Part shown: positions 1 to 20,611 of the stretch, piece after piece
Position numbering within the stretch: the first letter of the stretch is position 1
Layout of the letters: every line of letters begins with the position of its first letter
Translations under genes and position numbers: made by a program
The notes under the pieces: generated by a model
What the model was told of the DNA's origin: nothing
What the model saw: only the letters and a program-made list of their open reading frames with translations
The model's database searches: none
IMG/VR virus record: IMGVR_UViG_3300025849_000189
Location: 1 to 26,026 of that record
Reading direction: 5' to 3' (one strand)
Length of the DNA: 26,026 bases
DNA from: a virus

Positions 1-3000
1 CAGAACTTAATGTTGTTTGTTTTGCAGTTTCAATAACTGTACTCTCGTATGTGTTATACTGTTCCCAGATATTCATACGGAACGAACGTGTATCAGTAGT
101 TTCTGTAGATCCACTAGCGTTAGTTTGTACTAGTACACTGATATTTTCATGTACATCCATTGGTAAAAATTCTTCGTTCCAACCTTCTTTAACTGACTGT
201 TGGAATACATTAGCATCATAAATGTACGCTATATCCCCATCTACTGTTGTAAATGTTATTTCATCCACATGTTCAGGTGCTGTAGTAAATGTTCCACCAG
301 TTAGTATAGTATCTCCAGCCCATGTTCTTTCAAATCCAATATCTTCATATTTCATTGTAATAATACTATTACGGCTTATTTCATCAATTTGACTTTCCAC
401 TGATTCAATATGCGTATTGCGATCTGCTGTGCTATGTAATTTAGTATGGAATGGCTTAATACTGTTAAAGAAATCTTCAACTACATTTACATTATACTTA
501 CCATATTTTTCTTTGCTTGTAAGTAATGGGTGCTCAACATTTAGTTTTACAAACGTAGTTTTAAATGCAAAATCATCTGCTGTATTATCAGAAATTGCTT
601 GATACAAACATTTAAACCATAGTTTGTTATATTTAACTTGATGCCTACCTACAAATATATAAGACCTTAGTCCATCAAATATGTTTCCTAATATACCATC
701 AACTGAATTATCATATCCGTCTGTATCAAAGCCACTAATGTCGTAACCAATTCCAAACTTTTCAGTGTTCCAAAGCTCTTCACTTAATTGTATTGTGCCT
801 TTAACTTTGTGTTCAAGAACCCATTCGTCATTAATACGACTGTAAATTTCAGGTCTATTAATACCATCACTGTGAACAACTGTTGTTATTTTTAATGTAT
901 CACCATTGACATAAGAGAATGGAACACCAAGATCAGGATTTAGCTCGTCTTTACTAGTTGCTGTATACTTTGGAGGAATACTAGTATTGTATTCATATGT
1001 TAAACTATCATTATTGTCATATGTTCTTCTAATGTAGTCAGTGTAATTCCAATAAGGTGATACATCATATGTTATAATACCTTCAACATAAGTTTTGTTC
1101 ATAGCAGTTTCCCATCCATTAACACCATCAGTTAATGGAATATCAGCAAGTAACTTGTTGACAGTTTCAACAAAGTTTTGTCTTGCAACAGGAATTTCTC
1201 TTACTAAACTTTGTCTTGGACGAATTAAATGTCCAAAACGATTGTAAGGGTGTAGGTTTAAGTCTGGCAATGCATGTGGTCGACTAATATCAATATCAGA
1301 TTCTGGTGTACCATCTGGTAAACTATAATCATATACTCTACTCCAATGACTCTGATCTGTGTCAGTGCTTGGTTGGATATTAGTATTACCTTGTACTAAG
1401 TTAATATAAAAGTTATCGCCTTCTTGTACAACGACATCTTTATTATAAACTGCTGAATTATTCCATGTTGTATATGTATATCTTTCAGTATGTCTATTAT
1501 AACCAGTTAAACTATCACGCATTTTAATATGCAACTGCTCTGGAATAATGCTTGTGGGATCATTCTCTGACAACAGTGTCCATTCGCTGAGCGGAAGTGC
1601 ATTACTGTCTATACGTTGATTAACTTGTACTACTGTGTTATTTGTAATGGACAGATCAATATTTGATAGTAATAGTTCGTTTGCTCCTGCGGCTGCAGCC
1701 CAACTAATATCAAATGCACTTGGATTTTCTAGAAGTCTAGCTAATTGATATGTGTTGTAGTTGCGTTGGCTAAGAGTATTTTGCTTTCCTTTAACCCAAA
1801 AGAAGTAACTCTTTTCTGTACGTTTTGTGTTACTGTTATAACTTTTTTCTTCTGTCCAATTATAAACAGTTTCATTATCAATTTCAACACTTAGTGGAGT
1901 TCCAGTTGCTAGAGTACCGTCAATAAAACCGCCTCGCTGAACAAGATCCAGCCACTCTTCAGGAGGAACACTACTACGAGTCCACTCATATACATCAATA
2001 CTAGCACCATCAAATAGTCTGGCCCAGTATGCTTGTTTATAATCAATACTACTTTGTTCATAATCAATATATACGGCAGTATTAATATCCCACCAACGTA
2101 GCCCAACTTGCTCTGATGTCCAAGATTTTGTATTTTCATTAAATCCATTAATTGTATTGTAGTTATAACTTGCAATATCAGCAGTTAGTATAAAGTCTAT
2201 TTCTTTTTCAATAAACCCAGGAATAATACCCTTGGCTGGATCAAATATTTCAAGTTGTGTAATAGTGCTTCTTGTATATGCATCATAAAGTTTTACACTT
2301 TCAATAAGATCGTTACGTGCTTGAACACTACTTTGTCTAACTTTAACCCATCCATTTCCAGTATGTCCAGTATTGTTAGTATAGTTTCCATCCCATTTAT
2401 AAACAGCTGGATTGCCATTTCCATCATTGTCAACAAAAGCATACTTTGGTGTTTGTTGACTATTTTGTCTATAACCATTGAAGTTATATTTGAAAACACC
2501 ATTTACTGTACTGTTAGTATTATTATTAAGTGTAGCATAATCAGCAAATCTAACATTTCTTAGTGGATAGATATTACCAACTGTGCCGGTTTCTTGAATA
2601 TACTCATCAATATAAAATTTAAGTATACTGCTTGATGATACTTCAGTAACACGATGTATTCCATCAATGCTGGGTAATGTATTACTGCCTACAATAAGCA
2701 CATAGTCATTTTCAACAAGGTTATGTGCTTGAATATTGCTACTACTAAGTTTAACTGTAATTTCTGCATCATCTGCATCGTTAATACCAGCGCATGCTTT
2801 GGTAATACTCATACCAAAATCCATTGTTTGATACACTGCATATCCACTACTACTGTCGTCATCACCAACGTTATCCGCAACCCAAATACTAAAAACATGT
2901 GGATCATTGGTCATCTCTTGGAAAATTTGATTACCATCACTTCCAACAAATGCGTTAAAGACGTTGCTTACTGTTGTTTGTGTAGCACTAAGTGTTTGTG

Positions 3001-6000
3001 CAGTTAATCCTAATGTAGTATTAGCAGTACCAGAACCAAGAATTAATGTAGAATTAGTACTGGTTAATTTTAGTCTGTTGTTGCTGTTGCTAGCACCTAT
3101 TCCACTGATTGCTGCATTATTAATAATGTTGATTATTGAATTAAGATCAACAGTGGCTGAAACTTGTGTTACGGTTGTAGGTGCATTGGTAACGCCACTA
3201 CTTAATCCAATTACACTATTTGCTGACCCACTACCAATATAAAGGGTTTCATTATTACTATTGAGTTGTAACACATTATTATTGGCACCGCCTAATTGTG
3301 CAGTGACTCCAGTAATATTTGCATTGTTAATTTGATCTACTACTTGTGCAATAGTTAAGTTTGGACTATTTGACACAATTGTACCACTACTTGTTTCAGT
3401 TGTAGTACCAACTGTACTAAATCCAACTTCAGCGTTAGCAGTACCAACACTAATAGTTAATGTAAACAATGTGTTTGGTGTAGTTGTTGTTTTTACAATA
3501 GCAAGTCTATCATTACTATTGATTGCTGTTGTATTTGTAATACTTGCTAAATTAATTTTATCAATGATTTCTGCTAAAGTGTATGATTTAAATACTGTAG
3601 CAGTGGTCGATAGTACTATTGTACTTGAACTAAATGTAGTTGTTGGGTTAGCTATTAACCAGTTTTTAGTTGCAGTAATATACTGACCGGCTGCTATTGA
3701 ACTTTGCGCACTACTAATATCTCCAGGAGTTATAGTTTCAGTACCTGATGCAACAGCGGCACCATCATATGTTCTATTCAAAGTATTATTAATAATAGTT
3801 ACATCGTTTAGAAGGAGGCTAGTAAGCTCTGCTTCCCAAGCTGGTGTTGTAGCAATTTCATTAACAAGTTTAGTTATGTTTAACCCTGCATTGCTTGCAC
3901 TAAAGTAATCATTTAACCAAGAAACCCATGCTGAACTACTATTACCATTAATATATGCAACTCGTAAGTTGTTAATAGCAGTACATCTACTAGTTGATGT
4001 TGCAGCGATAGTTGATAAGTTTGCAGTCCAACTGTTTGTAAATGCATTTGTAAATGCTGTATTAGCAACTATGTTAGAAGTAATAGTTTCAGTTTCGTCA
4101 AAGTCAACAGTTTGGTTATCAATAATTAACGTCTTAGTTGCACTTCCTTGAATTTGTGGATTTATAATATCACCAACAATAGTAATATTATTATACACTG
4201 TACTTGTAGTTGTACTATTAAATGTAACTGTTCGAGCATCAGCACTAGTTGAACCTAGTATAATTGTTGAGTTATCAGTAACAACGTTAGTGTCGCCGAT
4301 GTTATTTTGCCCTGTAATATTAATGGTACCAAATGTTGTAGTGTCTGTTGTTTGCTGTAGGTTGACTGTGATGCCATCAATAATAACAGTTTGCCCAGTG
4401 TTTGGAATAACTGGAAGTGTAACTGTAGCTGTTGTCTCAATTGGATCGTTTGGTTTTGTTAACCCACTTGTACCGTCAGGGTCAAGCATTTCCCATACTT
4501 TACCATCATATATAACACGGTCTTTGTATTTGTATGCTGTTTTGTTGTCCCACTGTTTGATGTCTTTCCAATCGCCATTAAAGCTATATGCTTCTTTTAC
4601 TTCGTTAGGGAATTGTAAAAAATCATTTTTGTTTAGTACACGGTAATCAGTTTCCGTTAGTAACGGAAGACCTGCTGTAACAAAGTCATTTGCATATAAG
4701 TTTTCTTCTGCTATAGTTGTATAATTAAACGTTTTAGAAGGTCTGGTTGTAAAGTTATTTCCTGGCTCACCTTCAACTAGTAGCGGACTATTAAAGTCTA
4801 CATCAATAACAATATCACTCAAGACATCGTTCAGCTCCGTGGAGCTAAAGCGAACTGGTTGTGGATTTGTTTTTATTAAATCGTTTGTTAGTTGAAATTC
4901 TAGCGTGTTTCTACTACGTGTATCACCATAGTCTGCTGTGCGGATTGCCCACTCTTCGTGTACTGTTGCAGTTGCCATTGTACCAAATAATGAAGTATTA
5001 CGCATAAATGCATTTAAGGCATGTCGTGTACCTCTGTACTTACGGGTGCCTTTTACAAAGTTAAACAATGTATCATCATCTAGTCCAACAATATCATTCC
5101 AGGCTGGCTTATTATATCCAGTATTAAATCTTGCAGTATCAACTTGTTGTTGATTACTTAGTGTATTGCCTGGACCGTAGTATTGATCAATTTCATTAGC
5201 TACTGTGTCAAAGTTAGGCACAACACTATTACCATTTACAATGTAACCTGGTGCAAATAATTTACCATTCCAATTTTTACTACGGCTACCTCTCCATATA
5301 ACTCTTTTATGACGCATACCAAGTGCTGGATTGTAAATTAAGTCATCAAAGTTTGATTCATTATCAACAACCATTACATGTTCTATCTCAACACGATATA
5401 AACGGACACCATATATTTCTGTGCCAGTTGTAGCTTCTATTGTAGTCATAGCGCCATCATTACCAATAACGTCACGAGTAATAATAAGTTTATTGTTTAG
5501 TAGTTGTAGTCCGGCTTTGCCCACTACATTGTATTGACCATCAAACTTGTTATTGATATTGCTAAAATATCCGTTTGATTTTTCATTGATTTCTATTTTA
5601 GTAACACTTGGTATAGCATAATGTATAGCATTTAATTTTGCTGTTTCAGACCAAATAACTGTGCTACTTGCAACACTGTTCCAAGATAAATTCCAGCCTT
5701 TGCTTTCCAAATACAACCCATATCCAATTATAAATTCATATAAATCTTGAATACTGTCAAACACTGTGTTATAATCTAGTGTGCTATTTGTACTGCTATG
5801 GTGTTTGTATTTGCTAACTGTTGTATCACCAGCGGTAACTGTGAGTGCTCCAGCATCTTTATTTGGTTTAAAGTATACGAAGTTTTGCTTAGTAGTATCG
5901 TAACCTGTTACTTTATAACCAGTAGATACTTTTGTTATTTTAACAGCACCAAAAAATAGTTCTTCTTTTGGTTGACTTGTATACAATACTGTGTTAATGT

Positions 6001-9000
6001 TTTCTTCTGGTATATTAACACGGCCTTTGTCTTGGCTACTCTCAAGAATAATTTCTTGGTTACTGTTAATAAATCCACCAGCTTTAATTATTGGATTGGT
6101 AGTGTAATTTTCAAAACGCTTACTAACAGTTGATACTGTAGTGTTGTTATAATGCGCAAAGTTAATCAATGCATTGTTTAGTCCAGCAATATAACGGTTG
6201 GCACCAGCAGCTAGTATTACACTAAATGTTGCAGATCCAGTGTCAGGAAAAACTGATGGTACTGTTTGATAATTGCCACCTGGATCAGTTACTGCAACTG
6301 ATGTAATTACTCCACCACTTACGGTTGATTGTAGTTTTCCACCACTACCAAAGTTACTAAACACACTAAGTTCAGGGGCGCTTGAGTATCCACTACCGCC
6401 GTTTTTAACGTTAACTAGTTCTATAATGTTATCGTTGTATGTTGAATTAGACAACGGCACTAACTTATTATTTCCTAGCATCAGTGTATCTGCATACATG
6501 CGGTGTAATGTGTTAAAACTTCTTGATGTTCTTTCTTTACTACGGAAATATAAATTTGATATTTGCAATGGACGTAATTTAAGTAGCGCATAAAATAATG
6601 CAAGTTTATAATTACTTGTTTGGCGCCATTTGTTTTCAATAGTGCCCCAATCACCAAATACAATCTCAGCCATTGCTTGTGATGATGTTGGTGATGTAAC
6701 AACATTTGCAGTTACTGGATCATTTAACACTCCACCTGTAGTTACAAGTGTGTTTGTTTGCCAATCGTAAGCACTATAACTGTATGTTAAGTTATATTTT
6801 TTTGGACTTAATGCTGGGTCGTTTGAGTGACCAGATTCTAATGCAGCAATCAATGCTGTGCGTTTAGTTGGATCTGACCAACTATAATTTGTATCCCACC
6901 AAGTTGGCTTTTGGGTGTATCCAAACATTTCCCAAGGATGTGTATGTGGACGGTCTGTGTTAAAATAATAATTATACAACCCTCTCCATCCACCGATCTT
7001 TGGACCTACTGCACTATAATTCCAAGTGAACTTGTCACTAACATTATATTCAGCGGCATCATGTACGCTAGTAATGTTGTTTTTAGTTTTCCATTTATTA
7101 AAGCTACTGCGCAATGCATTAGTTAAATCAGTCCAGTTATATCTGTTTGGACGGCTTGCTAATGGCAAATACATATTATGCGATGGTACTGATTTATCAT
7201 CTAAGTTATTAAACACTCGAGACTCAAGCTCAAATAATACAGCATCTTCAATATTAAACCCTGATACATTTCTATTATATAATTCAGTACCCTTACGAGC
7301 AGTTATTGATCCATCATGTCCGTATATTGAAGTTGCGTCTACTTTGACATCGTACTTGCTTAACAATCCTAGCTTAACTGCACTAGGCGGAGCAAAACTA
7401 GGACTTGTTAATGGATACCATCTAATTTTAATTAAGGCTTCACCGTTACTATCAAAAGTTACACTACTAGTAACAGTTAATTGGTTTTGTGTAACTGTGT
7501 AATCTTGACCGTTTAGTAACGATCTCCAACGATGGTTACCAGAACCATCAGCATCACGTACACTTACATGTATGTGGTTAGATGTATCATCATATGTGTT
7601 AATAGTTTGTGGTAATTTAAAAACAGGACTCATTGATGCTGTCCATTGCCCACTAAATTCTTCATACTCTTTATACTTTATCATTTCACTGTTAGCAAAC
7701 AAATCGTTACGATTTTTTCCAACGTTTATGCTAGTCAACGCTTGGTCCACTAGTGAAATAACACTAAATGTACTATCAAGTGTGTTGTGTAATTGCATAC
7801 ACTTCTGTATAAATTGTTGTTTAAAGTTACTATAACTATCCATCGCAAACTTTAAACTATTAAACATATTGCTATCAACAAACATTGATGTTTGATTTAA
7901 CAATTCTGTCGAGTATGGCTGTTGACGGATAGTACCGCCAAATTCATGTATGTGTGGTAAAGTTCTGTAGCTGTTAACTCCAAAGAAACTGCCAGTGAAG
8001 CCAGGGATGCCTTCCATTTGTTGTTTCATATGTGTTATTATATCACCAAAACTAACATCAGTTAATAGTTCATTTTGTGGATTTAATACGTGCGTATCAG
8101 CTGGAAGGTTAGTACCTTGTAAAATATTGTCGTTAGTATGCCAGACAATGTCAAACAGATCATTAATATTAAACCCACTAGGAATAGTTATTTTATTGTT
8201 GGCTAGCGTATATACTGTAAATGGTTTTCCATTTCTAGTAACTGTTAGATTGTTTGGTATTGAATCGCTGTTTACATATATCAATCCACTTACACTGTTA
8301 TCACTAACAAGTCTATACATAATTGCTTCAGTAAGAAAGCTGTTACTTACAGTTAGTGTACGAGTGTTTCCTACAGGTGTACCAAGAGTGACATTAGCTA
8401 ATGCTGTACCGTCAGGTTGTAAAAACTCCAAGTCTGTGATATCAAAGATTGTTGATATATTATATGTTTTAGTTCTATCAATGAACAATGATGGATTCAA
8501 TCCATTTATGCGTTCTGGGTCTGCTGTAGTATTTGTACTGTTCCACTGGAATACTTGTATTTTATCATTACGTTTTGATATCTTAAATGTATCAGGTGCA
8601 TCAATGTTAGTTGTACCAATGTCAATTACAATTGGATCAGTATTAGTTACTACTTTTTGTATATGTTTTTTAACAGGCTGATGGTTTCTAATTGTTACCC
8701 AACCGTTATTAAAAGAACTATCACTAAGTTTTTTATAATAATAGTATCCTTGTATTTCAGAAACATTAGACGCATCACTGTTTGATGGAGTATCTGCTGT
8801 GTTTAATTGAAGATAGTTATATCTCTTACTGCCAAGTTCAATATCAAAACTTAGTCCTGGTGTGTTGCCATAATCTACATATCTTGGACTAAATCCAAGA
8901 GCAGTGTCAACAGTTGTATCACCAGTGCCATAATTAAAAATGTAATCACCGGAAAAATCACTGTTTGGATATGTTGCAGCATTGTTGAGTAATGTGCTGT

Positions 9001-10645
9001 TACTGTCATATAAGTTAAACTTAATACCTTGACTGCGATAACTTTTCTGTTGAGCATACACCCAAGCAGATCCATCCCAATACCATTCGCTTCCACTATA
9101 AATGTTGTTAGGGTATGATTCACCAAATACATTGTTGTATCCAATACGAACGTTTATGCCAGCACCAGTAACTAACGGTGTTGAGCTAGGTCCGTATATC
9201 TGTGTAAGTGCAGTAACAACATTACTTGCATCTACAGAGACTCTGTAGATATTATTATTATAAGGCGCTGTTGCGTTTAGGAATAATATAGTATCATTGT
9301 CTTGTAAATTACGTGCTTGTACTTGTTTCCAATAAACTGCGTTCTCAGAATAACTTGGGTTTTTACTTGTAGTGTGTGTCTTAATACAATTCCAATAAGT
9401 TGATACACCATTGCTTAATAATCGAACACTTGATCCGTATTCATATCCTTGTTCGTTCCAGAACAAGTTAATTGATTGTTCTGCTAAATTCCAATTAGTA
9501 GCAACACCAACTGGAATTTGATTCAGTGGGTCAGCAATATTGTCAATGACATATGTTATACTACCTAAACTACTTTTAGCAAAGTTATATTTCTCAATGC
9601 CAGCTCTAAACGCAATAATTGGTCGAACTCCACGGAAATTTTCTTGTAAATAAGTTTCTGCTGTTAAGTTTGGATATTGATAATCAGTATACTCTGCAAT
9701 AACCTTAACTACTTCTTCATGTATCCAAAGGTTACGTCTACTCCAAATACTTTGATCTGGACTATGTCTTTCTTCTACTACATAATCTCTACTTAACACA
9801 TCATATGATGTAAAGTCATATGATGGATATATAAAATCAGTATCTGATGCATCCCATTGGCTTGGCTCTTCTGCCCCATATACAGTGTCATTAAACCAAA
9901 CACGTTTTCCAAATCCATTTGCACCAGGACCTTCGAACTGCTTTGTTAAACTAATTGCAGTACCAACACCATCAACAATGTAAGTGTGGTCTTTATTGTA
10001 TAGTGAATTACCAGTTGTATTTGCGCCAGTAAATCGTACACGCATACCATTTTGAAACCCAAGTTGTTTTCCATTTGCCAAGGTTGGTGTTTTATAGTAT
10101 GGTAACCCAACAATATCAGAAACAGAAATCGGATCTGCTGCAGTCGCTGGTATATTACATATTGGTAAAAAGTCTACTAACCAAAAATAATGATGGTAGT
10201 TGATAAACATATCATAATCAATTGGTAAGTCTAACGTATAACCTGTTTCGTTAAAAATGCGGCTTGTGTTAGTAGTATCAACTTCATTATATTTTAGCAA
10301 ATCAATTAAATCATCATACGTCATTGCTTCAGTTATATTTTGATCTTGATCTCGAACTACTCCGCCAGGAACAAATTGATAGTTAGTTGCAAAACGGTTG
10401 TCTGATATAAATCTATCATTGCTTATATTTTTGTTTTGTATATCACCTAAGTAATAGTTGACTGCTTCCATACTACCACTTGACATCAACTGTTCAAGTG
10501 TGCTGTTTAAAAATTTCTTATTAACAGGTGTTTGGAAAATTGCAGGAAGTAAATCTACTGTACTCCGAGTACCAACGTATTCGGAACTTTCACCAGGTCT
10601 AGTAGATTGTTTTGCTACAATTGGTTTAGCATGGAACTTGCTCAT
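1..10645 (-). CDS. Giant baseplate-linked virion structural protein (partial, 3' end beyond window)
   Basis: Reading codon by codon from the ATG at 10645-10643, I find one frame open to base 2: 3548 codons and no stop, so the protein is longer than 3548 residues. The start is supported by a 4-base ATGA overlap with the gp6 stop. The N-terminus (about 1-140) is a compact, repeat-free domain with the motifs LLPAIFQTPVNKKFLN and DYDMFINYHHYFWL. Further on are W/Y-rich modules resembling carbohydrate-binding repeats (about 386-446, 2022-2069, 3057-3106), an RPHTHPWEMFGYTQKPTWW segment (about 1230), a GSGY-type beta segment (about 1407-1480), and three flagellin-IN-like repeats (about 2336-2562). 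A VNVVEDFFNSIKPFHTK segment lies near 3460. I see no signal peptide or membrane segment. The position directly after gp6 is that of T4 gene 7 (1032 residues), so I infer a baseplate wedge or tail-fibre-network protein made in large amounts late in infection. The homology to gp7 is not proven. Confidence 0.85.
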   Translation of the reverse strand, partial: MSKFHAKPIVAKQSTRPGESSEYVGTRSTVDLLPAIFQTPVNKKFLNSTLEQLMSSGSMEAVNYYLGDIQNKNISNDRFISDNRFATNYQFVPGGVVRDQDQNITEAMTYDDLIDLLKYNEVDTTNTSRIFNETGYTLDLPIDYDMFINYHHYFWLVDFLPICNIPATAADPISVSDIVGLPYYKTPTLANGKQLGFQNGMRVRFTGANTTGNSLYNKDHTYIVDGVGTAISLTKQFEGPGANGFGKRVWFNDTVYGAEEPSQWDASDTDFIYPSYDFTSYDVLSRDYVVEERHSPDQSIWSRRNLWIHEEVVKVIAEYTDYQYPNLTAETYLQENFRGVRPIIAFRAGIEKYNFAKSSLGSITYVIDNIADPLNQIPVGVATNWNLAEQSINLFWNEQGYEYGSSVRLLSNGVSTYWNCIKTHTTSKNPSYSENAVYWKQVQARNLQDNDTILFLNATAPYNNNIYRVSVDASNVVTALTQIYGPSSTPLVTGAGINVRIGYNNVFGESYPNNIYSGSEWYWDGSAWVYAQQKSYRSQGIKFNLYDSNSTLLNNAATYPNSDFSGDYIFNYGTGDTTVDTALGFSPRYVDYGNTPGLSFDIELGSKRYNYLQLNTADTPSNSDASNVSEIQGYYYYKKLSDSSFNNGWVTIRNHQPVKKHIQKVVTNTDPIVIDIGTTNIDAPDTFKISKRNDKIQVFQWNSTNTTADPERINGLNPSLFIDRTKTYNISTIFDITDLEFLQPDGTALANVTLGTPVGNTRTLTVSNSFLTEAIMYRLVSDNSVSGLIYVNSDSIPNNLTVTRNGKPFTVYTLANNKITIPSGFNINDLFDIVWHTNDNILQGTNLPADTHVLNPQNELLTDVSFGDIITHMKQQMEGIPGFTGSFFGVNSYRTLPHIHEFGGTIRQQPYSTELLNQTSMFVDSNMFNSLKFAMDSYSNFKQQFIQKCMQLHNTLDSTFSVISLVDQALTSINVGKNRNDLFANSEMIKYKEYEEFSGQWTASMSPVFKLPQTINTYDDTSNHIHVSVRDADGSGNHRWRSLLNGQDYTVTQNQLTVTSSVTFDSNGEALIKIRWYPLTSPSFAPPSAVKLGLLSKYDVKVDATSIYGHDGSITARKGTELYNRNVSGFNIEDAVLFELESRVFNNLDDKSVPSHNMYLPLASRPNRYNWTDLTNALRSSFNKWKTKNNITSVHDAAEYNVSDKFTWNYSAVGPKIGGWRGLYNYYFNTDRPHTHPWEMFGYTQKPTWWDTNYSWSDPTKRTALIAALESGHSNDPALSPKKYNLTYSYSAYDWQTNTLVTTGGVLNDPVTANVVTSPTSSQAMAEIVFGDWGTIENKWRQTSNYKLALFYALLKLRPLQISNLYFRSKERTSRSFNTLHRMYADTLMLGNNKLVPLSNSTYNDNIIELVNVKNGGSGYSSAPELSVFSNFGSGGKLQSTVSGGVITSVAVTDPGGNYQTVPSVFPDTGSATFSVILAAGANRYIAGLNNALINFAHYNNTTVSTVSKRFENYTTNPIIKAGGFINSNQEIILESSQDKGRVNIPEENINTVLYTSQPKEELFFGAVKITKVSTGYKVTGYDTTKQNFVYFKPNKDAGALTVTAGDTTVSKYKHHSSTNSTLDYNTVFDSIQDLYEFIIGYGLYLESKGWNLSWNSVASSTVIWSETAKLNAIHYAIPSVTKIEINEKSNGYFSNINNKFDGQYNVVGKAGLQLLNNKLIITRDVIGNDGAMTTIEATTGTEIYGVRLYRVEIEHVMVVDNESNFDDLIYNPALGMRHKRVIWRGSRSKNWNGKLFAPGYIVNGNSVVPNFDTVANEIDQYYGPGNTLSNQQQVDTARFNTGYNKPAWNDIVGLDDDTLFNFVKGTRKYRGTRHALNAFMRNTSLFGTMATATVHEEWAIRTADYGDTRSRNTLEFQLTNDLIKTNPQPVRFSSTELNDVLSDIVIDVDFNSPLLVEGEPGNNFTTRPSKTFNYTTIAEENLYANDFVTAGLPLLTETDYRVLNKNDFLQFPNEVKEAYSFNGDWKDIKQWDNKTAYKYKDRVIYDGKVWEMLDPDGTSGLTKPNDPIETTATVTLPVIPNTGQTVIIDGITVNLQQTTDTTTFGTINITGQNNIGDTNVVTDNSTIILGSTSADARTVTFNSTTTSTVYNNITIVGDIINPQIQGSATKTLIIDNQTVDFDETETITSNIVANTAFTNAFTNSWTANLSTIAATSTSRCTAINNLRVAYINGNSSSAWVSWLNDYFSASNAGLNITKLVNEIATTPAWEAELTSLLLNDVTIINNTLNRTYDGAAVASGTETITPGDISSAQSSIAAGQYITATKNWLIANPTTTFSSSTIVLSTTATVFKSYTLAEIIDKINLASITNTTAINSNDRLAIVKTTTTPNTLFTLTISVGTANAEVGFSTVGTTTETSSGTIVSNSPNLTIAQVVDQINNANITGVTAQLGGANNNVLQLNSNNETLYIGSGSANSVIGLSSGVTNAPTTVTQVSATVDLNSIINIINNAAISGIGASNSNNRLKLTSTNSTLILGSGTANTTLGLTAQTLSATQTTVSNVFNAFVGSDGNQIFQEMTNDPHVFSIWVADNVGDDDSSSGYAVYQTMDFGMSITKACAGINDADDAEITVKLSSSNIQAHNLVENDYVLIVGSNTLPSIDGIHRVTEVSSSSILKFYIDEYIQETGTVGNIYPLRNVRFADYATLNNNTNSTVNGVFKYNFNGYRQNSQQTPKYAFVDNDGNGNPAVYKWDGNYTNNTGHTGNGWVKVRQSSVQARNDLIESVKLYDAYTRSTITQLEIFDPAKGIIPGFIEKEIDFILTADIASYNYNTINGFNENTKSWTSEQVGLRWWDINTAVYIDYEQSSIDYKQAYWARLFDGASIDVYEWTRSSVPPEEWLDLVQRGGFIDGTLATGTPLSVEIDNETVYNWTEEKSYNSNTKRTEKSYFFWVKGKQNTLSQRNYNTYQLARLLENPSAFDISWAAAAGANELLLSNIDLSITNNTVVQVNQRIDSNALPLSEWTLLSENDPTSIIPEQLHIKMRDSLTGYNRHTERYTYTTWNNSAVYNKDVVVQEGDNFYINLVQGNTNIQPSTDTDQSHWSRVYDYSLPDGTPESDIDISRPHALPDLNLHPYNRFGHLIRPRQSLVREIPVARQNFVETVNKLLADIPLTDGVNGWETAMNKTYVEGIITYDVSPYWNYTDYIRRTYDNNDSLTYEYNTSIPPKYTATSKDELNPDLGVPFSYVNGDTLKITTVVHSDGINRPEIYSRINDEWVLEHKVKGTIQLSEELWNTEKFGIGYDISGFDTDGYDNSVDGILGNIFDGLRSYIFVGRHQVKYNKLWFKCLYQAISDNTADDFAFKTTFVKLNVEHPLLTSKEKYGKYNVNVVEDFFNSIKPFHTKLHSTADRNTHIESVESQIDEISRNSIITMKYEDIGFERTWAGDTILTGGTFTTAPEHVDEITFTTVDGDIAYIYDANVFQQSVKEGWNEEFLPMDVHENISVLVQTNASGSTETTDTRSFRMNIWEQYNTYESTVIETAKQTTLSS
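2960..3640 (-). repeat. Three tandem flagellin-IN-like repeats inside the giant protein
   Basis: At about residues 2336-2562 of the giant protein, a unit of about 65-78 residues recurs three times. Each unit has a hydrophobic helix (TLAEIIDKINLASIT, TIAQVVDQINNANIT, DLNSIINIINNAAIS), then a short strand after N or NN (DRLAIV, NVLQLN, NRLKLT), then a glycine turn (SVGTANAEVGF, GSGSANSVIGL, GSGTANTTLGL). This is the general pattern of the flagellin hook IN motif found in FliD, FlgK and many phage tail proteins. The copies are diverged at DNA level, so this is an old duplication and not an assembly artefact. The assignment to that family is from pattern only. Confidence 0.7.
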
Positions 10646-13600
10646 GTAATGTTTACTCCGCTATTTGCTGCAATTGATGTAGGTGTATAAACTGTACTCT
10701 TGTTTACTATGATGTCACTAGTTGATATAACTGGCAAAAACAATTCATCACTATCACTAATTATTTCAAATAATGCGTTTGGATTTGCTTGATTATCTAC
10801 TGATTCGATATTAATCTGCGCTATTTGACCAACTGTATTGTTGTGGATAAAGGCCGCTAGTTCAGTAAAGTAAAATGTATCTCCAAAATCCCAACTGTCA
10901 ATACTAAAATATAGATTGATCAATCGTATTATTTCTTGTTTAATTTCAGTATCACTTAGTGTACTATTTGCAGTTTTGGTTACATTAAATTTTGCTTGTA
11001 GTTCACTACTTGCCAAGTTACCAAAAAGTATTTTGTACTTAACTGGTCTATATATAACTTGATCACTGATTGACTTTTTGTTGTCTAAACTTTTAAACAA
11101 GTCATTCAACGAAGATATAGTAGGAGGATTTGGTTTAGTATATGCTCTACCATCAAATCTTGCCCATGTTCTAAAACTGTTCTCATAAGATGTTAACAGT
11201 ACATATGTATCAATAATGTTAGTTGTTGCTGGATCAATAACTTGATTAGCATCAGCAATACGTGTATATTTGCTTGATAGTCCACTACGTCCAGTTACTG
11301 ATGTGCCGCTACTAGTATTATGTACTGTATACGTAAACCCATTAACAACTTTTGTATTAAGTTTGATTGTTTCGTCTCCAACAATATCATGGAATGCACT
11401 TGGATTTACTGGAAACCCATCATTTTTAGGACTTGACAATGTTAGTCTAATTTTGTTAGGATCAGTATAACCATCTGGATATACAAAATATCCAAATGCA
11501 TTCATAATATAATCTGAACCAATTGGTAAACTGTTTGATTTGCTTTTACTATTAATTCCTAGTATCTTGATATTGTCCATACTTGGTTTTAGTGTCTCAC
11601 TACTAAATGTTTCAGCAAAGTTTAAGTTAGCAAATTTAACTTGCTCATCACTACCAAACACATAACGAGTTTTGCGGGTTATAATTTCCCACTGTGATGA
11701 AGTATAATTTAGTCTTATAATCCAACTGTTGTCAAGACCTGTACCGTTTGTATCACCTTCATATGTTCTACTCCAACTACTTGGATTGTTATTTGTAATT
11801 GAACTAGTGACTAAGTCACTACTATCAACTATTGCCCATGCTTGTGTTGCAGCATCATAACGTAAACCAAAGCTGTTTTTGTTTGTAATACGAGTAAGCA
11901 CATTTGTTTTAATTGCACTGGTTAAATCATTAGCCCAACTTGGCAAAATACGTTTAATGCGAGCACCACTTGGAATAACTCCGCTTAATACAATACTACC
12001 ACGGCCAATCATATCAATACCAGTTGGTGTACCAATACTATTATCGATCCCTAGTCCGTCATTGTAAATTCCAGTTACTCTTACCCATTTTGTATCTGCA
12101 TTTGAAATTACGGCTGTTGCACTTGCACCGCTACCGCCACCACCACTAAGTGTAATACTTGTAGCACTGTCATAACTTAATCCGCTATTTGTAATAGTAA
12201 TACTAACTAACGCTCCACTACCATCAATATTTGCAACACCAGTAGCACCTGTTCCAGCGCCTGCTATTGTAACTGTTGGTGCTGATGTGTATCCACTACC
12301 AGCACTGGTTATTTTGATACTGCTAATGTATCCTATTTTATATGGAGGAGTTACAAACTCAATGATTGAATTTATATCAATTTTATCCATTGGTGCAACG
12401 CCGTTTGACTTAACTCGTTGTATAGTACTAGTGTCGTTAGTTAAGTATCCAGTACTTGTGTTTGCACCCTTAGTAACTTGATTCCAACGGAATGCATTTG
12501 TTGCACTACCGTTTGCATTATAGTAAACAATATTAGCAGTTGTGTTAGTATATTGACTAGCTGGAGCATATGCTCCATCTGGACCATAATACTGCCTATC
12601 ATAAAAGAAGTTTTTAACTTCTGGATTATCCAATAGTGGCTTAATAAACCTACTGTATGTTTGTTCACTGTTTAAATTAGTTGGTAGACTAACTACACTA
12701 CGTGCCGCAATATCTTCTCTGTACAAATATCCATCGTCTAAGAACTGTATAGCGTCACTATAACTGCCAGTTGGATCGTTAAAATCTCTAAAGCGACTGT
12801 GTCCACTATGTACACGGTTAACACTTTTAATTTTGCGTATGTTTTCACTTACTGTTAATGGAAATATACTGTAATCTTCTGCTGTTACTAATCTATCTTG
12901 TGTACTAAAGAAACGTCCAGCATTGTCTTTAATGCTTTGTAAACTTTCACGTTCACTAGCATTGCTTATTCTAGTTTTTAAACTAGCACTAAACACTGCA
13001 CGATATGTATTTCCATCACTACCTGCGTAATCAAACGAATATGAAGTTGATCCAAAACTTTCTGGATTTAGTGCATAACTACGGTTTAATCCAGTTCTAT
13101 ACCACACACGGATAATACCACGTGGTACGTTCCCAAATAGTCCGTCACCAAACACAATACTAATTTTATCATCTTCTCTACTTGATACAGTATAAATGTT
13201 TCTAAAGTTATTGTCAAGATTATTATATATTGCATTTAGTCCGAAGATTCGATCAACTTGATTCCAATTAGATGATACTTGTCCAATTTCATCAATAGTC
13301 TGTACCCAAATATTTCCGTTTGCTACATTAGTGTCATCAATATCAAGTACAAGATTTGGCAATCCGTCAGTAATGTTAAAGTCTTTGAAGTTTAATGTGC
13401 CTTGTTTAAATCCTAAAAAGAATCCAGTGTTTGGACTACTAAACCCACCATTGTCATTTTTGTATAATATATCAAGTGCACCAAATGGATCAGGTGTTTT
13501 TTCTTGTATACGATTTGAGTTAGTATTATAATACAAACTATGTGCACCAAATACTGCTCGTGTTCCAGAAATATTTGCGTTAAACTCGTACGATGGTTCA

Positions 13601-14181
13601 GCACCTATACTTGTTGTTCTGTAAATTTCGTTTGAGATGCCGTCACGCACACTCCTACTAAAAGGTGTACCAAATTGGTTACTGCCGGCAAAGATGCTGT
13701 TCATTACTGTAATAAAGTTTTGATAAAAAACTGGATCAGTTACATCTTCAAACTGCAAGTCCACATTTGCAAGACTGTTTCCGTCTACATCATAAACTGT
13801 TTCACTTGTTTTTACACTATCAATTTTTAAATAACCACTAGCTACTACATTACGTGTTGGGTTATACCCCAAAAACTCAGCAATACGGAGGGCGCTGTCT
13901 CTACGTTCTGCTGTACTTAAATAATTTTCACGTGAGTTAAGATCATTACGGAATGCTAAGTTGTGTCCCAGAAATGCCATAAGTTCTAGTAAACTTGTAA
14001 ACTCACTTGAGCTGATCCAGTCATTAAAATTTTCTGGGTAGTTGGTATCTATGTACTCTACCATTGCATTTTTAATAGTGTCAAAGTCGTATGCTTGGAA
14101 GTTTGCTTGCGCAAAACTTTCATACACTACACTAAAATCTTCAGCTGCAAATAAACTGCTCTGTCTTGCGCCTTGTGCCAT
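10642..14181 (-). CDS. 6: Baseplate wedge subunit gp6 (enlarged)
   Basis: T4 gp6 joins neighbouring wedges into the ring of the contractile-tail baseplate and carries a Baseplate_J-type core. The N-terminus here (about 20-125) has the family hallmarks FQAYDFDTIKNAMVEYI, NYPENFNDWISSSEF, GHNLAFRNDLNSRENYLST and AEFLGYNPTRN. The C-terminus (about 1010-1160) has the wedge dimerisation-like region with YKILFGN, INLYFSIDSWDFGDTFYF and IAQINIESVDNQ. At 1179 residues it is nearly twice T4 gp6 (660). The extra length lies mostly in the middle and includes glycine-rich GSGYTSAPTVTIAG segments at about 620-692. The ATG forms a TAATG overlap with the gp25 stop, and its own stop overlaps the next start as ATGA, so translation is probably coupled through the operon. 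Confidence 0.93.
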   Translation of the reverse strand: MAQGARQSSLFAAEDFSVVYESFAQANFQAYDFDTIKNAMVEYIDTNYPENFNDWISSSEFTSLLELMAFLGHNLAFRNDLNSRENYLSTAERRDSALRIAEFLGYNPTRNVVASGYLKIDSVKTSETVYDVDGNSLANVDLQFEDVTDPVFYQNFITVMNSIFAGSNQFGTPFSRSVRDGISNEIYRTTSIGAEPSYEFNANISGTRAVFGAHSLYYNTNSNRIQEKTPDPFGALDILYKNDNGGFSSPNTGFFLGFKQGTLNFKDFNITDGLPNLVLDIDDTNVANGNIWVQTIDEIGQVSSNWNQVDRIFGLNAIYNNLDNNFRNIYTVSSREDDKISIVFGDGLFGNVPRGIIRVWYRTGLNRSYALNPESFGSTSYSFDYAGSDGNTYRAVFSASLKTRISNASERESLQSIKDNAGRFFSTQDRLVTAEDYSIFPLTVSENIRKIKSVNRVHSGHSRFRDFNDPTGSYSDAIQFLDDGYLYREDIAARSVVSLPTNLNSEQTYSRFIKPLLDNPEVKNFFYDRQYYGPDGAYAPASQYTNTTANIVYYNANGSATNAFRWNQVTKGANTSTGYLTNDTSTIQRVKSNGVAPMDKIDINSIIEFVTPPYKIGYISSIKITSAGSGYTSAPTVTIAGAGTGATGVANIDGSGALVSITITNSGLSYDSATSITLSGGGGSGASATAVISNADTKWVRVTGIYNDGLGIDNSIGTPTGIDMIGRGSIVLSGVIPSGARIKRILPSWANDLTSAIKTNVLTRITNKNSFGLRYDAATQAWAIVDSSDLVTSSITNNNPSSWSRTYEGDTNGTGLDNSWIIRLNYTSSQWEIITRKTRYVFGSDEQVKFANLNFAETFSSETLKPSMDNIKILGINSKSKSNSLPIGSDYIMNAFGYFVYPDGYTDPNKIRLTLSSPKNDGFPVNPSAFHDIVGDETIKLNTKVVNGFTYTVHNTSSGTSVTGRSGLSSKYTRIADANQVIDPATTNIIDTYVLLTSYENSFRTWARFDGRAYTKPNPPTISSLNDLFKSLDNKKSISDQVIYRPVKYKILFGNLASSELQAKFNVTKTANSTLSDTEIKQEIIRLINLYFSIDSWDFGDTFYFTELAAFIHNNTVGQIAQINIESVDNQANPNALFEIISDSDELFLPVISTSDIIVNKSTVYTPTSIAANSGVNIT

Positions 14182-14546
14182 TATGTTGTCTCACTTGTGT
14201 ATGTTAAATATAGTTCTTCAGCCAGCCCAGTATCATCATAAACAACACGTACTCGTATATCTAATTGATGATCTGAAGGTTTAGTTAAATTTAATTCACT
14301 AAAAATCCATCTTGGGTCACTGTCAATAATATTTTGTACATCTTCAGTTGCCAAATTTTCTGTAGCTTCGTCTAGAGGTTCAAAAATTAAATCATGTAGT
14401 ATTGACCCAAAGTTTGGGTTCATTACTCTTTCACCTTTACGAGTGTAAAAGTGGTTTAGCAAGTCACGCAGTGCTAAATCCTTGTCTGTAAGGATTGAGT
14501 TAATGCTTTTGCTATCAATTGTGCTATATCCAACGTATGTAACCAT
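14181..14546 (-). CDS. 25: Baseplate wedge subunit gp25
   Basis: gp25 is the small, conserved wedge protein of contractile tails (TssE in type VI secretion), where it helps nucleate sheath assembly. The 121-residue product has the typical core DLALRDLLNHFYTRKGERVM, then NPNFGSILHDLIFEPLDE, and a C-terminal half of alternating strands (LDIRVRVVYDDT, AEELYLTYTS). Its length is close to T4 gp25 (132). The stop overlaps the gp6 start (TAATG). No Shine-Dalgarno sequence is visible before the ATG. Instead, a perfect late promoter box ends five bases upstream, so the mRNA may start at or next to the start codon. The 33-base gap before it is the longest space between genes in this operon. Confidence 0.95.
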   Translation of the reverse strand: MVTYVGYSTIDSKSINSILTDKDLALRDLLNHFYTRKGERVMNPNFGSILHDLIFEPLDEATENLATEDVQNIIDSDPRWIFSELNLTKPSDHQLDIRVRVVYDDTGLAEELYLTYTSETT

Positions 14547-14551
14547 ACTGA

Positions 14552-14559
14552 TATTTATA
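14552..14559 (-). promoter_or_regulatory. T4-type late promoter box before gp25
   Basis: The minus strand reads TATAAATA, an exact match to the T4 late promoter consensus recognised by RNA polymerase with gp55. It lies in the only sizeable gap of the structural operon (14547-14579) and on the right strand. Its last base is five bases before the gp25 ATG, which would put the transcript start at about the A of the ATG. It could be chance in AT-rich DNA, but I found only one other perfect copy on this strand, also in an intergenic position. Confidence 0.6.
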
Positions 14560-14579
14560 GCAAAATTAACTGCTACTTT

Positions 14580-15467
14580 TTAAATTTTAGTAGTAAATCG
14601 GACAATATCACCAGTATTCAGTGTTTTTGTTATAGTAATAACATTGTTAAGCAAAGTAAAGTCAAAAAAGTGTTGAATTACCTCTCCGTTAATTTCCACT
14701 TTAAGTTTTTCTACTGGTTCCATACTAGGAGTAGTTGAGATTGTAAACACACTACTACCACTGTATGTGAATTGATCAACGACTAATTTACTGTCATACT
14801 GCTTTGCAATAGTACGTTTAATACCCTCTGGTGTTTTTGAAAGGAATTTTAGTGTTTCTGCATAGTATGCAAATCTTGCTCTTTCTAAGTCGTCCTCACC
14901 TAGCGCATCGATATCATTTTTATCACGCATTTCATATATACCAGTTTGTCTATGCCAACTACGTGATTTTGTTTTTCCATAGTCACTTAATCTTATAATT
15001 GATGCTGCTTGTGAGCAAAAATTTCGATTAAAGTTGCTACGTTTAATTGCACTTGCAAGTGAATCCCAATCACTATTAACAATGTAATCTCGTAATTCAT
15101 ATACACCTTCATTGGCAGTTACTTGCAAAATGTCGCCATTAATAATATAGTAAAGTATTAACCCATCATACACACATTGTGGTATACTAGGTAATCCAAA
15201 GTCTTTTAGTTGTCTAATGAGAGTACGCTGATTGTTTTGAAAATCTTGTATCCAAATATTATATGCTTCTTGCTCAGTGATTCCACGATCAAAACCAGGA
15301 ATACTGTAACCAGTTTGGTTATATCCAACATATGTTGACATATTAAGAGTTACAAGAATTACTTTGTCACTAGCAGTTATTGTATTAATGTCTAACCTGG
15401 TATTCCAGTTTTCGTCTTTAACAATAAATTCTTCCCAATTTGTCTTAAATTTAGATAAAATAGTCAT
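14580..15467 (-). CDS. Baseplate-region protein with lysozyme-like domain (inferred)
   Basis: A 295-residue protein between gp5 and gp25; I do not recognise a T4 counterpart by sequence. Residues about 50-180 follow the layout of a T4-lysozyme-like fold: a GYSIPG turn, ITEQEAYNIWIQDFQN (compare the ITKDEAEKLFNQDV segment of T4 lysozyme), a hydrophobic core helix VYDGLILYYIINGD, then SDWDSLASAIKRSNFNRNF. The usual catalytic glutamate before the glycine turn is not visible, so the domain may be structural only. The C-terminal 70 residues look like a small beta domain (VFTISTTPSMEPVEKLKVEI and following). It starts two bases after the gp5 stop with AGAAGG upstream as a likely ribosome site. The fold call is inference; that the gene is real and part of the baseplate operon is secure. 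Confidence 0.85.
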   Translation of the reverse strand: MTILSKFKTNWEEFIVKDENWNTRLDINTITASDKVILVTLNMSTYVGYNQTGYSIPGFDRGITEQEAYNIWIQDFQNNQRTLIRQLKDFGLPSIPQCVYDGLILYYIINGDILQVTANEGVYELRDYIVNSDWDSLASAIKRSNFNRNFCSQAASIIRLSDYGKTKSRSWHRQTGIYEMRDKNDIDALGEDDLERARFAYYAETLKFLSKTPEGIKRTIAKQYDSKLVVDQFTYSGSSVFTISTTPSMEPVEKLKVEINGEVIQHFFDFTLLNNVITITKTLNTGDIVRFTTKI

Positions 15468-15469
15468 AA

Positions 15470-16924
15470 TTATTGCCTTCTGCCTGAACGAATATTTTTA
15501 GCTTTGGCTCTGCGTTCCAGTTCTTTTTCAAAAGCAGATTTTCGTTGTTCATTTTCACCAGCAAAAGGACTCGGAGCTGAATTAGTTTTTCCTACGTCAC
15601 TTTGTTCATAATCCACTGGAGATGACTTTGGATAGTCGAATTTCGATACATCATAATCAGTTGCTGATGTTTGTGCACTTGATGGTGCTTGTGCAGCAAT
15701 TTTATTACCTTGTGCACTATGTCCGCCCCATGGTTCATGTTCAGGTACTCTTGGATTAATGCTTTCTATTACTGCACGATTTACATTTAAACTTCCGCTT
15801 GTTGGTCCAACTGCACCCAATGCTGAAGGACCGTTTAAGTCTAACATACCATCTGTACTAATTCTACCATATCCTTTAGCTTTAAGTTGTAAATTTAAAT
15901 CAGTTGTTAGTCGTATGTCTTTATTTGCTTTAAGTTGTATTGGCCCTGTTGCAGTTTCTGCTTGTATACCTGCGGCACCACGAGCTTTAATATTAAATGA
16001 ATCAGCATCCATGTTAATATCACCGCCAGCATAAAAGTTAAAGTCTTTTTCTGCATGATAACTTACACTACCTTTTGCATAAACATCAACATTTCCATCA
16101 GCATCCATTTGCATCCAACTAGTGCCTTTTTGGTTTGTTATATATACAATACCAGCAGTGTCATTGAAAAGCATTTGTGCTCCGCCTGCACTACGTAAAC
16201 GTACTAAGTTATTTTGACCTTCTTCACGTGATTGGTCTGGTACATAATTTACTCCTTCTCTATGAGCAACTGTACCGTCATCCATTACAAAACTATGTCC
16301 TGCAGGAGTTACAAATCCTGATACATTAATCGGTGACTCACGTCGTGAACCACTACTACCAATCCCACGTATTGGGTCTAATGCAGTACCTTGCTCAGCA
16401 ATTGCATTGCTAACTGGATGTCTACTTCTAGTATTTCCTGATTGCTTAACTCCTGGGTCAACTGATGCGCCGATGGTATTTTCATTTGTTATTTCACTAA
16501 CTGGTAATCCAGGTATTGAACCGTTACGTCCAACTGTTGGCAGTACGCCAATTAAAAACCCAATGGGATCGTCTCCAGTAAACGCAACTAAAACTTCAGT
16601 GCCAGGACCAGGCGGAGGGAAGCATGCACCGTATGCAACTGATGTATTTTCACCAGTAATTGATCCACCAAATGGAGATACTGTTCTAACTTTAGTAAAT
16701 TTATGTCTTTCTTCACGGGTATCTTGGTTTCCCCATCTTTCATTATTAACTAATTTAACATATATTGCTTGTCCATAATCAGGGTCAGCTACATCAACAA
16801 CATTACCCACAAACACTCCGTTAGGCATTGCAAATCCAACACGATCACCACTAGAATACACTGATGGTATTCCAATCGAATCTCTATTTGTATTTGTTGC
16901 TCTATTTTGTTCTTTATTTGACAT
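15470..16924 (-). CDS. 5: Baseplate central spike gp5-like, without lysozyme domain
   Basis: T4 gp5 is the needle under the baseplate hub: an OB-fold domain, a lysozyme domain, and a triple-stranded beta-helix. Here residues about 25-130 form the OB-like part (VGFAMPNGVFVGNVVDVADP, YGACFPPPGPGTEVLVAFTGDDP, GFLIGVLPT). Residues about 210-370 form a VgrG-like beta-helix with short repeating turns (VDVYAKGSVSYHAEKDFNF, INMDADSFNIKARG, IQLKANKDIRLTTD). The 80 or so residues between are a glycine/serine linker with no glycoside hydrolase motif, so the lysozyme of T4 gp5 is absent. After the helix comes an RVPEHEPWGGH segment and a charged, probably disordered tail of about 85 residues. AAGGAA precedes the ATG, and the upstream gene ends eight bases earlier. 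At 484 residues it is shorter than T4 gp5 (575). Confidence 0.88.
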   Translation of the reverse strand: MSNKEQNRATNTNRDSIGIPSVYSSGDRVGFAMPNGVFVGNVVDVADPDYGQAIYVKLVNNERWGNQDTREERHKFTKVRTVSPFGGSITGENTSVAYGACFPPPGPGTEVLVAFTGDDPIGFLIGVLPTVGRNGSIPGLPVSEITNENTIGASVDPGVKQSGNTRSRHPVSNAIAEQGTALDPIRGIGSSGSRRESPINVSGFVTPAGHSFVMDDGTVAHREGVNYVPDQSREEGQNNLVRLRSAGGAQMLFNDTAGIVYITNQKGTSWMQMDADGNVDVYAKGSVSYHAEKDFNFYAGGDINMDADSFNIKARGAAGIQAETATGPIQLKANKDIRLTTDLNLQLKAKGYGRISTDGMLDLNGPSALGAVGPTSGSLNVNRAVIESINPRVPEHEPWGGHSAQGNKIAAQAPSSAQTSATDYDVSKFDYPKSSPVDYEQSDVGKTNSAPSPFAGENEQRKSAFEKELERRAKAKNIRSGRRQ

Positions 16925-16932
16925 AATGTTCC

Positions 16933-19698: not shown

Positions 19699-19997
19699 TA
19701 GCTCGCTCCAAAAGAACTTGACTTAGCAGGGACTTTAATTTCTAATCCCGCAACAAAATCATTGATTGGATCTCTAAGTTTGTCTCTATTATAATGAACA
19801 AACACCCACCAAAATCTTGGATTTCCATACATATCAAATGCAAGTAAGTCTGGACGACGGTGGTATCGATTTCCAATGCGTACTAGCGTTGCATTTTCTG
19901 ACAAACTAGCATTGGTTAGTTTTGGCTGATAGATATCTAAATACTTTAAATTTTGAGAAGTTATTGCATAGTTACTGGAGTTAGAATATTTTGCCAT
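19698..19997 (-). CDS. 53: Baseplate wedge gp53-like, short LysM-type protein
   Basis: T4 gp53 clamps neighbouring wedges in the inner baseplate and has a LysM-like fold. The 99-residue product here has the matching core: RRPDLLAFDMYGNPRFWWVF, then HYNRDKLRDP and FVAGLEIKVP, comparable with the RPEELANAIYGNPQLYWVL segment of T4 gp53. It is only half the length of T4 gp53 (196), lacking its C-terminal half. The start codon overlaps the stop of the upstream gene and its stop overlaps the next start, both as TAATG, so it is translated within the coupled operon. The identity is good at the level of the LysM-like wedge family; the exact T4 equivalence is an inference. Confidence 0.8.
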   Translation of the reverse strand: MAKYSNSSNYAITSQNLKYLDIYQPKLTNASLSENATLVRIGNRYHRRPDLLAFDMYGNPRFWWVFVHYNRDKLRDPINDFVAGLEIKVPAKSSSFGAS

Positions 19998-20611
19998 TAG
20001 ATAAACCCTTGTCCATATAACTTACCATTAATAAACTGGTGTTTACTAAATTCACGCTTTTGTTTAGCTGGATTTATACTAACAAGTAAATCAAGTGCAA
20101 TCGTTTGTACTGCTGGCAACGCTTGTGGTTTACCGTTTTCGTCCACCACTTCAACTAAGTCAGTATCACTTTGATAAGGAATACTTACATTGCCAACAAA
20201 AACTGGAACATTATTAAATTGATTTGATCCAAAACTAGAAAACCTCAATTTAGGCGGCGGTGTACCTGCTATTGGTGATGTTGTCGTATCTTGTATACCA
20301 TAAAACATTTTTGTCACAGAACGTAAGAAATGTATTACCCCTTGTGTATATAGATGTTCGTCTCGAGTAACATTACTAAATTGTGCTGTTATTTGTATAG
20401 TTGGACTTGGTGTTCCAGCATATGCATGTGTTGTATAATTAGTATGTGTTAAATTATACTGATTGTAATTGACAGATTGGTTGTACACAATATCTGGTTG
20501 TACAGGAAATACTAACCCGCCAGTATCTCGTAGCACTGCCGCTGGACCAGCATAATATATATCTGGCGCCATGCAACTGATTTTTGTTCTAGCTGAATTA
20601 CTTATTGCCAT
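19997..20611 (-). CDS. Baseplate tail-tube protein, gp48/gp54-like
   Basis: A 204-residue protein whose middle carries motifs I associate with the T4-like baseplate tail-tube proteins gp48/gp54 of marine myoviruses: LTHTNYTTHAYAGTPSPTIQ, QFSNVTRDEHLYTQGVIHFL, RSVTKMFYG, GTPPPKLRF and, near the end, INPAKQKREFSKHQFINGKL. Such proteins cap the central hub and start tube polymerisation. T4 gp48 (364) and gp54 (320) are longer, so which of the two this replaces cannot be told from sequence reading. The gene overlaps the end of the nucleotidyltransferase gene by 14 bases and is followed at once by gp53. Confidence 0.75.
   Translation of the reverse strand: MAISNSARTKISCMAPDIYYAGPAAVLRDTGGLVFPVQPDIVYNQSVNYNQYNLTHTNYTTHAYAGTPSPTIQITAQFSNVTRDEHLYTQGVIHFLRSVTKMFYGIQDTTTSPIAGTPPPKLRFSSFGSNQFNNVPVFVGNVSIPYQSDTDLVEVVDENGKPQALPAVQTIALDLLVSINPAKQKREFSKHQFINGKLYGQGFI

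Follow-up and report, generated by a model that had tools for sequence, protein, structure and literature searches.

A virus contig of 26,026 bp (IMG/VR record IMGVR_UViG_3300025849_000189), referred to here as the window, carries on its minus strand an open reading frame that starts at ATG 10645, directly after a gene resembling phage T4 gp6, and continues for 3,548 codons (10645 to 2) without a stop until it exits the left end of the record. An earlier note on this DNA had suggested that the frame, which occupies the place of gp7 in T4, may encode a baseplate wedge protein fused with fibre or adhesin modules. The locus raises the question of whether so long a frame is a gene and, if so, what kind of protein it encodes.

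The long frame is a protein-coding gene

Re-reading of the sequence confirmed the ATG start and the open frame to the window edge; the five alternative frames over this interval contain between 125 and 562 stops. Under a simple base-composition model, an open run of 3,548 codons at 35% GC would arise by chance with a probability of ~1e-113. Comparison with the homologue in contig L007 revealed differences of 0.16, 0.10 and 0.34 at codon positions 1, 2 and 3, respectively, a protein-coding pattern that identifies the frame as a real gene. An assembly artefact or chance frame has a negligible probability: the window is a metagenome contig open at its end and two related contigs contain single in-frame stops, but the chance estimate and the concentration of divergence at third codon positions speak against it, and many independent complete homologues (3,079–4,022 aa, isolates among them) rule it out. 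The two stops, one in gp6 of the near-identical contig L046 (at L046 7462; 7 differences in 15,221 bp) and one in the giant gene of the related contig L016 (around 3983), are likely single-base contig errors.

Because the window is the entire virus record, with no leftward extension in place, the stop position of the giant was taken from homologues in other contigs. The closest complete homologues, in L007 and L006, are 3,656 aa and 3,662 aa long, and the window covers their first 3,542 and 3,548 residues, respectively. Judged by this alignment, about 97% of the giant would lie inside the window, with the C-terminal ~110–120 residues beyond the record and a full length of ~3,660 aa. This estimate is ~3.5 times the length of T4 gp7 (1,032 aa), and the factor of at least 3.4 given in the earlier note is correct as a minimum.

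The giant belongs to a known family of jumbo-phage virion proteins

The giant matches PHROG 10938, annotated as 'virion structural protein', in four stretches (E 1.1e-224). By sequence, it is a member of this known family of giant jumbo-phage tail-baseplate proteins, which includes PA5oct gp355, RaK2 ORF070w, CBB_236, SCTP-2 gp140 and a protein of Atu_ph07. Searches with tblastn found the giant in 56–60 phage records, nearly all of them 285–490 kb. All 15 related records that were searched contain a match with the long frame uninterrupted; the stops listed for SCTP-2 in that search fall in joined match ranges, and the annotated SCTP-2 frame is 3,807 aa long. Identity to the named family members is ~22–30%. 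The window giant shares with the phages of this family five blocks along the whole length, a size of 3.3–3.9 thousand aa, the late sigma factor, SbcCD and baseplate gene order and, except in SCTP-2, the slot after gp6. The window lineage differs in having an insert of ~830 residues where the RaK2 giant has ~185.

Two family members have been detected by mass spectrometry. CBB_236 is listed in the virion mass-spectrometry table of CBB with values of 21 and 7.72, read here as peptides and per cent coverage (PMC5259590), and the PA5oct record carries an ESI-MS/MS note for gp355. The virion mass spectrometry of a relative that the earlier note had proposed was thus in effect already available, and it bears out, together with the family match, a virion structural protein. 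The gene is an additional member of a known family of giant virion proteins, and the suggestion that it had gone unrecognised does not hold.

A conserved baseplate gene order places the giant after gp6

The giant gene overlaps the gp6-like gene by 4 nt (ATGA), as gp6 and gp7 overlap by 4 nt in T4. Read along the minus strand, the order is a cytidylyltransferase-like gene, two structural protein genes, a gp5-like hub gene, a gene for a 295-aa protein, gp25, gp6 and the giant (Table 1), so that the described position directly after gp6 stands as part of a gp25–gp6–giant baseplate cluster. In cyanophages, a cytidylyltransferase has been reported among the structural proteins of the virion (PMC3037559). 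The plus strand of the window encodes a late sigma factor and SbcD/SbcC-like proteins. The gp6-like protein is also enlarged, with 1,179 aa compared with 660 in T4, and has a GGSGYTSAP-type repeat at residue 628; the whole wedge therefore seems expanded.

PA5oct has nearly the same order, with sigma factor, SbcD and SbcC genes and, on the opposite strand, genes for structural proteins, hub, wedge, gp6 and a giant of 3,857 aa, and in RaK2 and CBB gp6 is followed by giants of 3,326 aa and 3,340 aa. The giant directly follows gp6 in the window, in these three phages and in dozens of IMG/VR contigs; in metagenomic relatives the preceding gp6-like protein has 1,175–1,391 aa, with the 4-nt overlap in the close ones. 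In Salicola phage SCTP-2 (L003), the giant is preceded by a 3,096-aa protein (8624–17914) with no detectable gp6 similarity, a second giant gene in the place expected for gp6, so the adjacency is not universal. Downstream of the giant, L006 encodes a PHROG 11259 protein and then fibre-like proteins (12801–15486), and a PHROG 11259 protein also follows the giant directly in PA5oct, indicating that the downstream order is conserved as well. Searches for DNA tandem repeats and tRNAs returned none.

Table 1 Features of the giant gene and its surroundings (window coordinates; residues are those of the giant).
Feature	Position	Strand	Basis
Giant ORF, first 3,548 residues of ~3,660	2–10645	−	ORF and homologue alignment; PHROG 10938, E 1.1e-224
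Conserved block, residues 16–370	9536–10600	−	Matches to PA5oct, RaK2 and SCTP-2 proteins; conservation profile
Conserved block, residues 518–650	8696–9094	−	Matches to relatives; conservation profile
Predicted beta-sandwich domain, residues 683–796 (approximate)	8258–8599	−	AF2, pLDDT about 80–89
Conserved block, residues 855–1365	6551–8083	−	Matches to relatives; conservation profile
GGxGYxxAP-type repeat, residues about 1405–1475 (~1417)	6221–6433	−	Common to cyanophage giants and the window's gp6
Conserved block, residues 1545–1934	4844–6013	−	Matches to relatives; conservation profile
KGT-type motif RKYRGTRHALNAFMRN, residues 1868–1883, candidate gp7/P2 gpI core motif	4997–5044	−	hhalign, rank 1 of ~58 slices with three templates
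Lineage-variable insert, residues 1935–2770, Ser/Thr/Asn-rich	2336–4843	−	~835 residues here, ~185 in RaK2
CBM_5_12-like segment, residues 2031–2054	4484–4555	−	E 2.7e-4, below Pfam cut-off
Flagellin/FliD D2–D3-like region with helical insertion, residues ~2151–2420 (lead only)	3386–4195	−	AF2, pLDDT about 85–94
Three diverged ~70-aa repeats, residues about 2344–2552	2990–3616	−	Self-alignment
Conserved Trp-rich C-terminal block, residues 2770–3404	434–2338	−	Matches to distant relatives
gp6-like baseplate wedge protein, 1,179 aa	10642–14181	−	PHROG 10646, E 4e-262; hhalign to T4 gp6 82%, E 1e-5
gp25-like baseplate wedge protein	14181–14546	−	PF04965, E 6e-10; PHROG 43
295-aa protein between gp5-like and gp25 genes	14580–15467	−	Fibre-type matches weak, E about 0.01
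gp5-like hub protein	15470–16924	−	
Virion structural protein	16933–19698	−	
Virion structural protein	19997–20611	−	
Cytidylyltransferase-like gene, first in baseplate operon	20598–21188	−	PF01467, E 6e-8

A short motif points to a possible gp7-like role

In T4, gp7 (PHROG 964) is a wedge monomer present in six copies per tail (PMC3004832). The giant resembles it in gene slot, in the 4-nt overlap with gp6 and possibly in a KGT-type motif (T4 residues ~735–760), and differs in its length, in lacking full-length similarity and in the N-terminal helix of the gp7 core, which is not recognised in the giant. Profile comparison of T4 gp7 with the giant by hhalign, full-length and sliced, gave less than 2% for all slices, although the same method recognises the window gp6 against T4 gp6 (82%). 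Extension of the full-length and sliced comparison to T4 gp5–gp12, gp53 (a single-sequence profile) and wac returned no match. The PF09684 (Tail_P2_I) model did not match the giant, and a PDB sequence search with the whole giant and three profiles identified no relatives. Among the PDB matches listed for AF2 models of the giant there was no gp7, gp6 or TssG chain; these models have a mean pLDDT of 64–65, and such a fold may still be present. A fusion of gp8 into the giant was rejected, as PF09215 had no match in related genomes and none among the slices. In six jumbo genomes, no gp7 (PHROG 964), gp8 or gpI match was found elsewhere.

The slot after gp6 holds proteins of very different size. 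Among relatives of T4, gp6 is followed by the gene for gp7 or a likely gp7 counterpart, whose length ranges from 283 aa in Menlow (annotated otherwise) through 767 aa in Cr30, 1,006 aa in phiM7 (77% to T4 gp7 by hhalign) and 1,032 aa in T4 to 3,007 aa and 3,515 aa in the cyanophages S-SSM6a and S-RSM4. The P2 protein gpI and TssG are regarded as the gp7 counterparts in P2 and in the T6SS (PMC6300606). The most conserved gp7 piece, T4 residues 729–759, which matches residues 192–222 of the S-SSM6a protein (96%, E 1.7e-9; obtained without using the giant), holds a KGT-type motif that is also found in phiM7, Cr30, S-RSM4, Menlow and P2 gpI.

In the giant, a KGT-type site ("RGT..AL..FMR") lies at residues 1868–1883, with the sequence IRQKGTKQALEKLFRST in the distant relative L063. 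After the motif had been spotted by eye, ~58 overlapping slices of the giant were compared with profiles of the gp7 segment, of gpI and of both combined. Slices with the site ranked first for all three templates, and the best place was residues 1867–1887. The combined template gave 17% with the window-centred and 46% with the L063-centred alignment, compared with at most about 1–3% for slices lacking the site. The gp7-only template gave 6% and P2 gpI gave 17% (P 0.0014–0.0015, rank 1); the motif match is short (16–23 columns) and weak, and the gp7 and gpI templates match each other at only 1.5%. Sequence-to-profile HMMER searches with the KGT models gave null-level scores, and the site was separated only by profile–profile comparison. 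The N-terminal helix, the second gp7 core element, was not supported, and AF2 did not fold residues ~1755–2066 around the motif. Identity with gp7 is weakly supported by gene order, the absence of another gp7 or gpI candidate and one short motif; the full-length comparison did not bear it out. On balance, this evidence favours a gp7-like role for the giant, although we do not assign it to the gp7 family.

Cyanophages provide annotated precedents for giant proteins in the gp7 slot, the PHROG 2885 'baseplate wedge subunit' of S-SSM6a and S-RSM4, and size in this slot is therefore not itself new. These proteins resemble the window giant in lying directly after gp6, in having a GGxGYxxAP repeat and possibly in a KGT-type motif, but their sequences appear otherwise unrelated: hhalign aligned the window giant with them only in the repeat region (residues ~1400–1550), and hmmscan of the giant yielded no PHROG 2885 match. 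The bulk of the S-SSM6a protein follows the KGT motif, whereas about half of the window giant precedes it. The 3,007-aa S-SSM6a protein (L166 19846–28869) matches T4 gp7 729–759 near its start and 814–888 near residue 2,400, an arrangement that resembles an insertion of ~2,150 residues between adjacent pieces of gp7. P2 gpI and TssG share with the giant the position after the gp6 counterpart and possibly the KGT motif, after which some relatives have an EEW segment, and differ in having only 176–200 aa.

Conserved blocks alternate with putative surface modules

The conserved blocks of the giant (Table 1) were defined by matches to PA5oct, RaK2, SCTP-2 or metagenomic distant relatives and by the conservation profile; residues 2760–3060 are 28–34% identical to PA5oct, RaK2, SCTP-2 and other distant relatives. 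Searches of Pfam and NCBIfam gave no match in the giant except a CBM_5_12 match of 21.4 bits, below the Pfam gathering cut-off of 26.2, and the orthologue in vB_Pa-PAC2 is annotated as 'chitin-binding type-3 domain-containing'. The ~70-aa repeats have a self-alignment score of 114 compared with a shuffled maximum of 49. Across residues 1–1000 and 1480–2679 the AF2 models have the mean pLDDT given above, and that of residues ~2069–2560 is confident. In the PDB, this last model is matched best by flagellin and by FliD/FlgK domains, with several flagellar proteins at the top of the list (FlaB, FliD, FliC and FlgK at Z 7.5, 7.1, 6.3 and 5.3); Z values of 5–7.5 are at noise level and are rated uncertain by the tool itself. 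VIA-align matched the beta-sandwich region to generic folds with Z up to 7.7. BFVD matches of the N-terminal model include a cyanophage 'baseplate wedge tail fiber connector' (E 2.6e-4) as well as proximal tail-fibre models.

The CBM-like, repeat, flagellin-like and beta-sandwich regions, as predicted, would fit stalk- or surface-like modules, and none of them is proof of adhesion or binding. The proposed fibre or adhesin modules are partly supported by the sub-threshold CBM_5_12 segment, the ~70-aa repeats, the noise-level flagellin/FliD-like models and the fibre-connector-like beta-sandwich. Among close relatives, the insert is about 40–67% identical and the conserved blocks 33–73%; the insert is about as conserved as the rest, and this argues against a part that binds receptors and evolves fast. 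Such an insert had been predicted, and the conservation profile did not bear it out.

Discussion

Taken together, these results argue that the giant is a structural component of the tail baseplate in a jumbo-phage-like myovirus, probably in the wedge position of T4 gp7. From this reading we infer a copy number, a contact with gp6, a peripheral location and a function for the insert. One copy of the giant would be present per wedge, and a small domain surrounding the KGT-type motif would join it to the gp6 dimer; T4 gp7 forms a heterotrimer with two gp6 chains. The long extensions towards both termini would make up the periphery of an enlarged baseplate, and the variable insert, with its repeats and possibly carbohydrate-binding modules, may protrude and hold or help the fibres.

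Alternatively, the giant could be a baseplate or tail protein that surrounds the wedge or anchors fibres, the gp7/gpI role being filled by another small, unrecognised protein. The lack of full-length gp7 or gpI similarity, the negative N-helix test and the resemblance of part of the N-terminal model to cyanophage fibre-connector and proximal tail-fibre models are in keeping with such an arrangement. We consider it a serious but less likely competitor: in most relatives it is the giant that comes immediately after gp6, in the gp7/gpI slot, and gp7 and gpI templates alike align best with the giant at its KGT site. Far less probable is a protein that serves mainly in receptor binding or as an adhesin, in which case the gene following gp6 would encode a giant fibre that binds the host surface through its variable modules. 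Ser/Thr/Asn-rich repeats, the CBM_5_12 segment and a gain and loss of modules that takes the total length among close relatives from 3,589 to 4,022 aa would suit it, but the insert does not evolve much faster than the conserved blocks, and most of the length of the giant is conserved across very different hosts.

If the giant does hold the wedge position of gp7, a more tentative proposal is that very large additions around a tiny conserved core brought the jumbo gp7/gpI/TssG subunit to over 3,600 residues, the first helix and the KGT domain of the core perhaps lying ~1,800 residues apart, and that this growth was independent of the cyanophage giant gp7, whose added mass sits elsewhere in the chain. 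Should the gp7 reading prove wrong, the giant would still be a conserved virion component. If it is right, much of the baseplate mass of jumbo phages could be placed on the known wedge plan, and the 'virion structural' or 'hypothetical protein' of dozens of jumbo phages would gain a defined place and, in gp6, a partner that can be tested. The same wedge slot would then have become giant twice, with different sequence.
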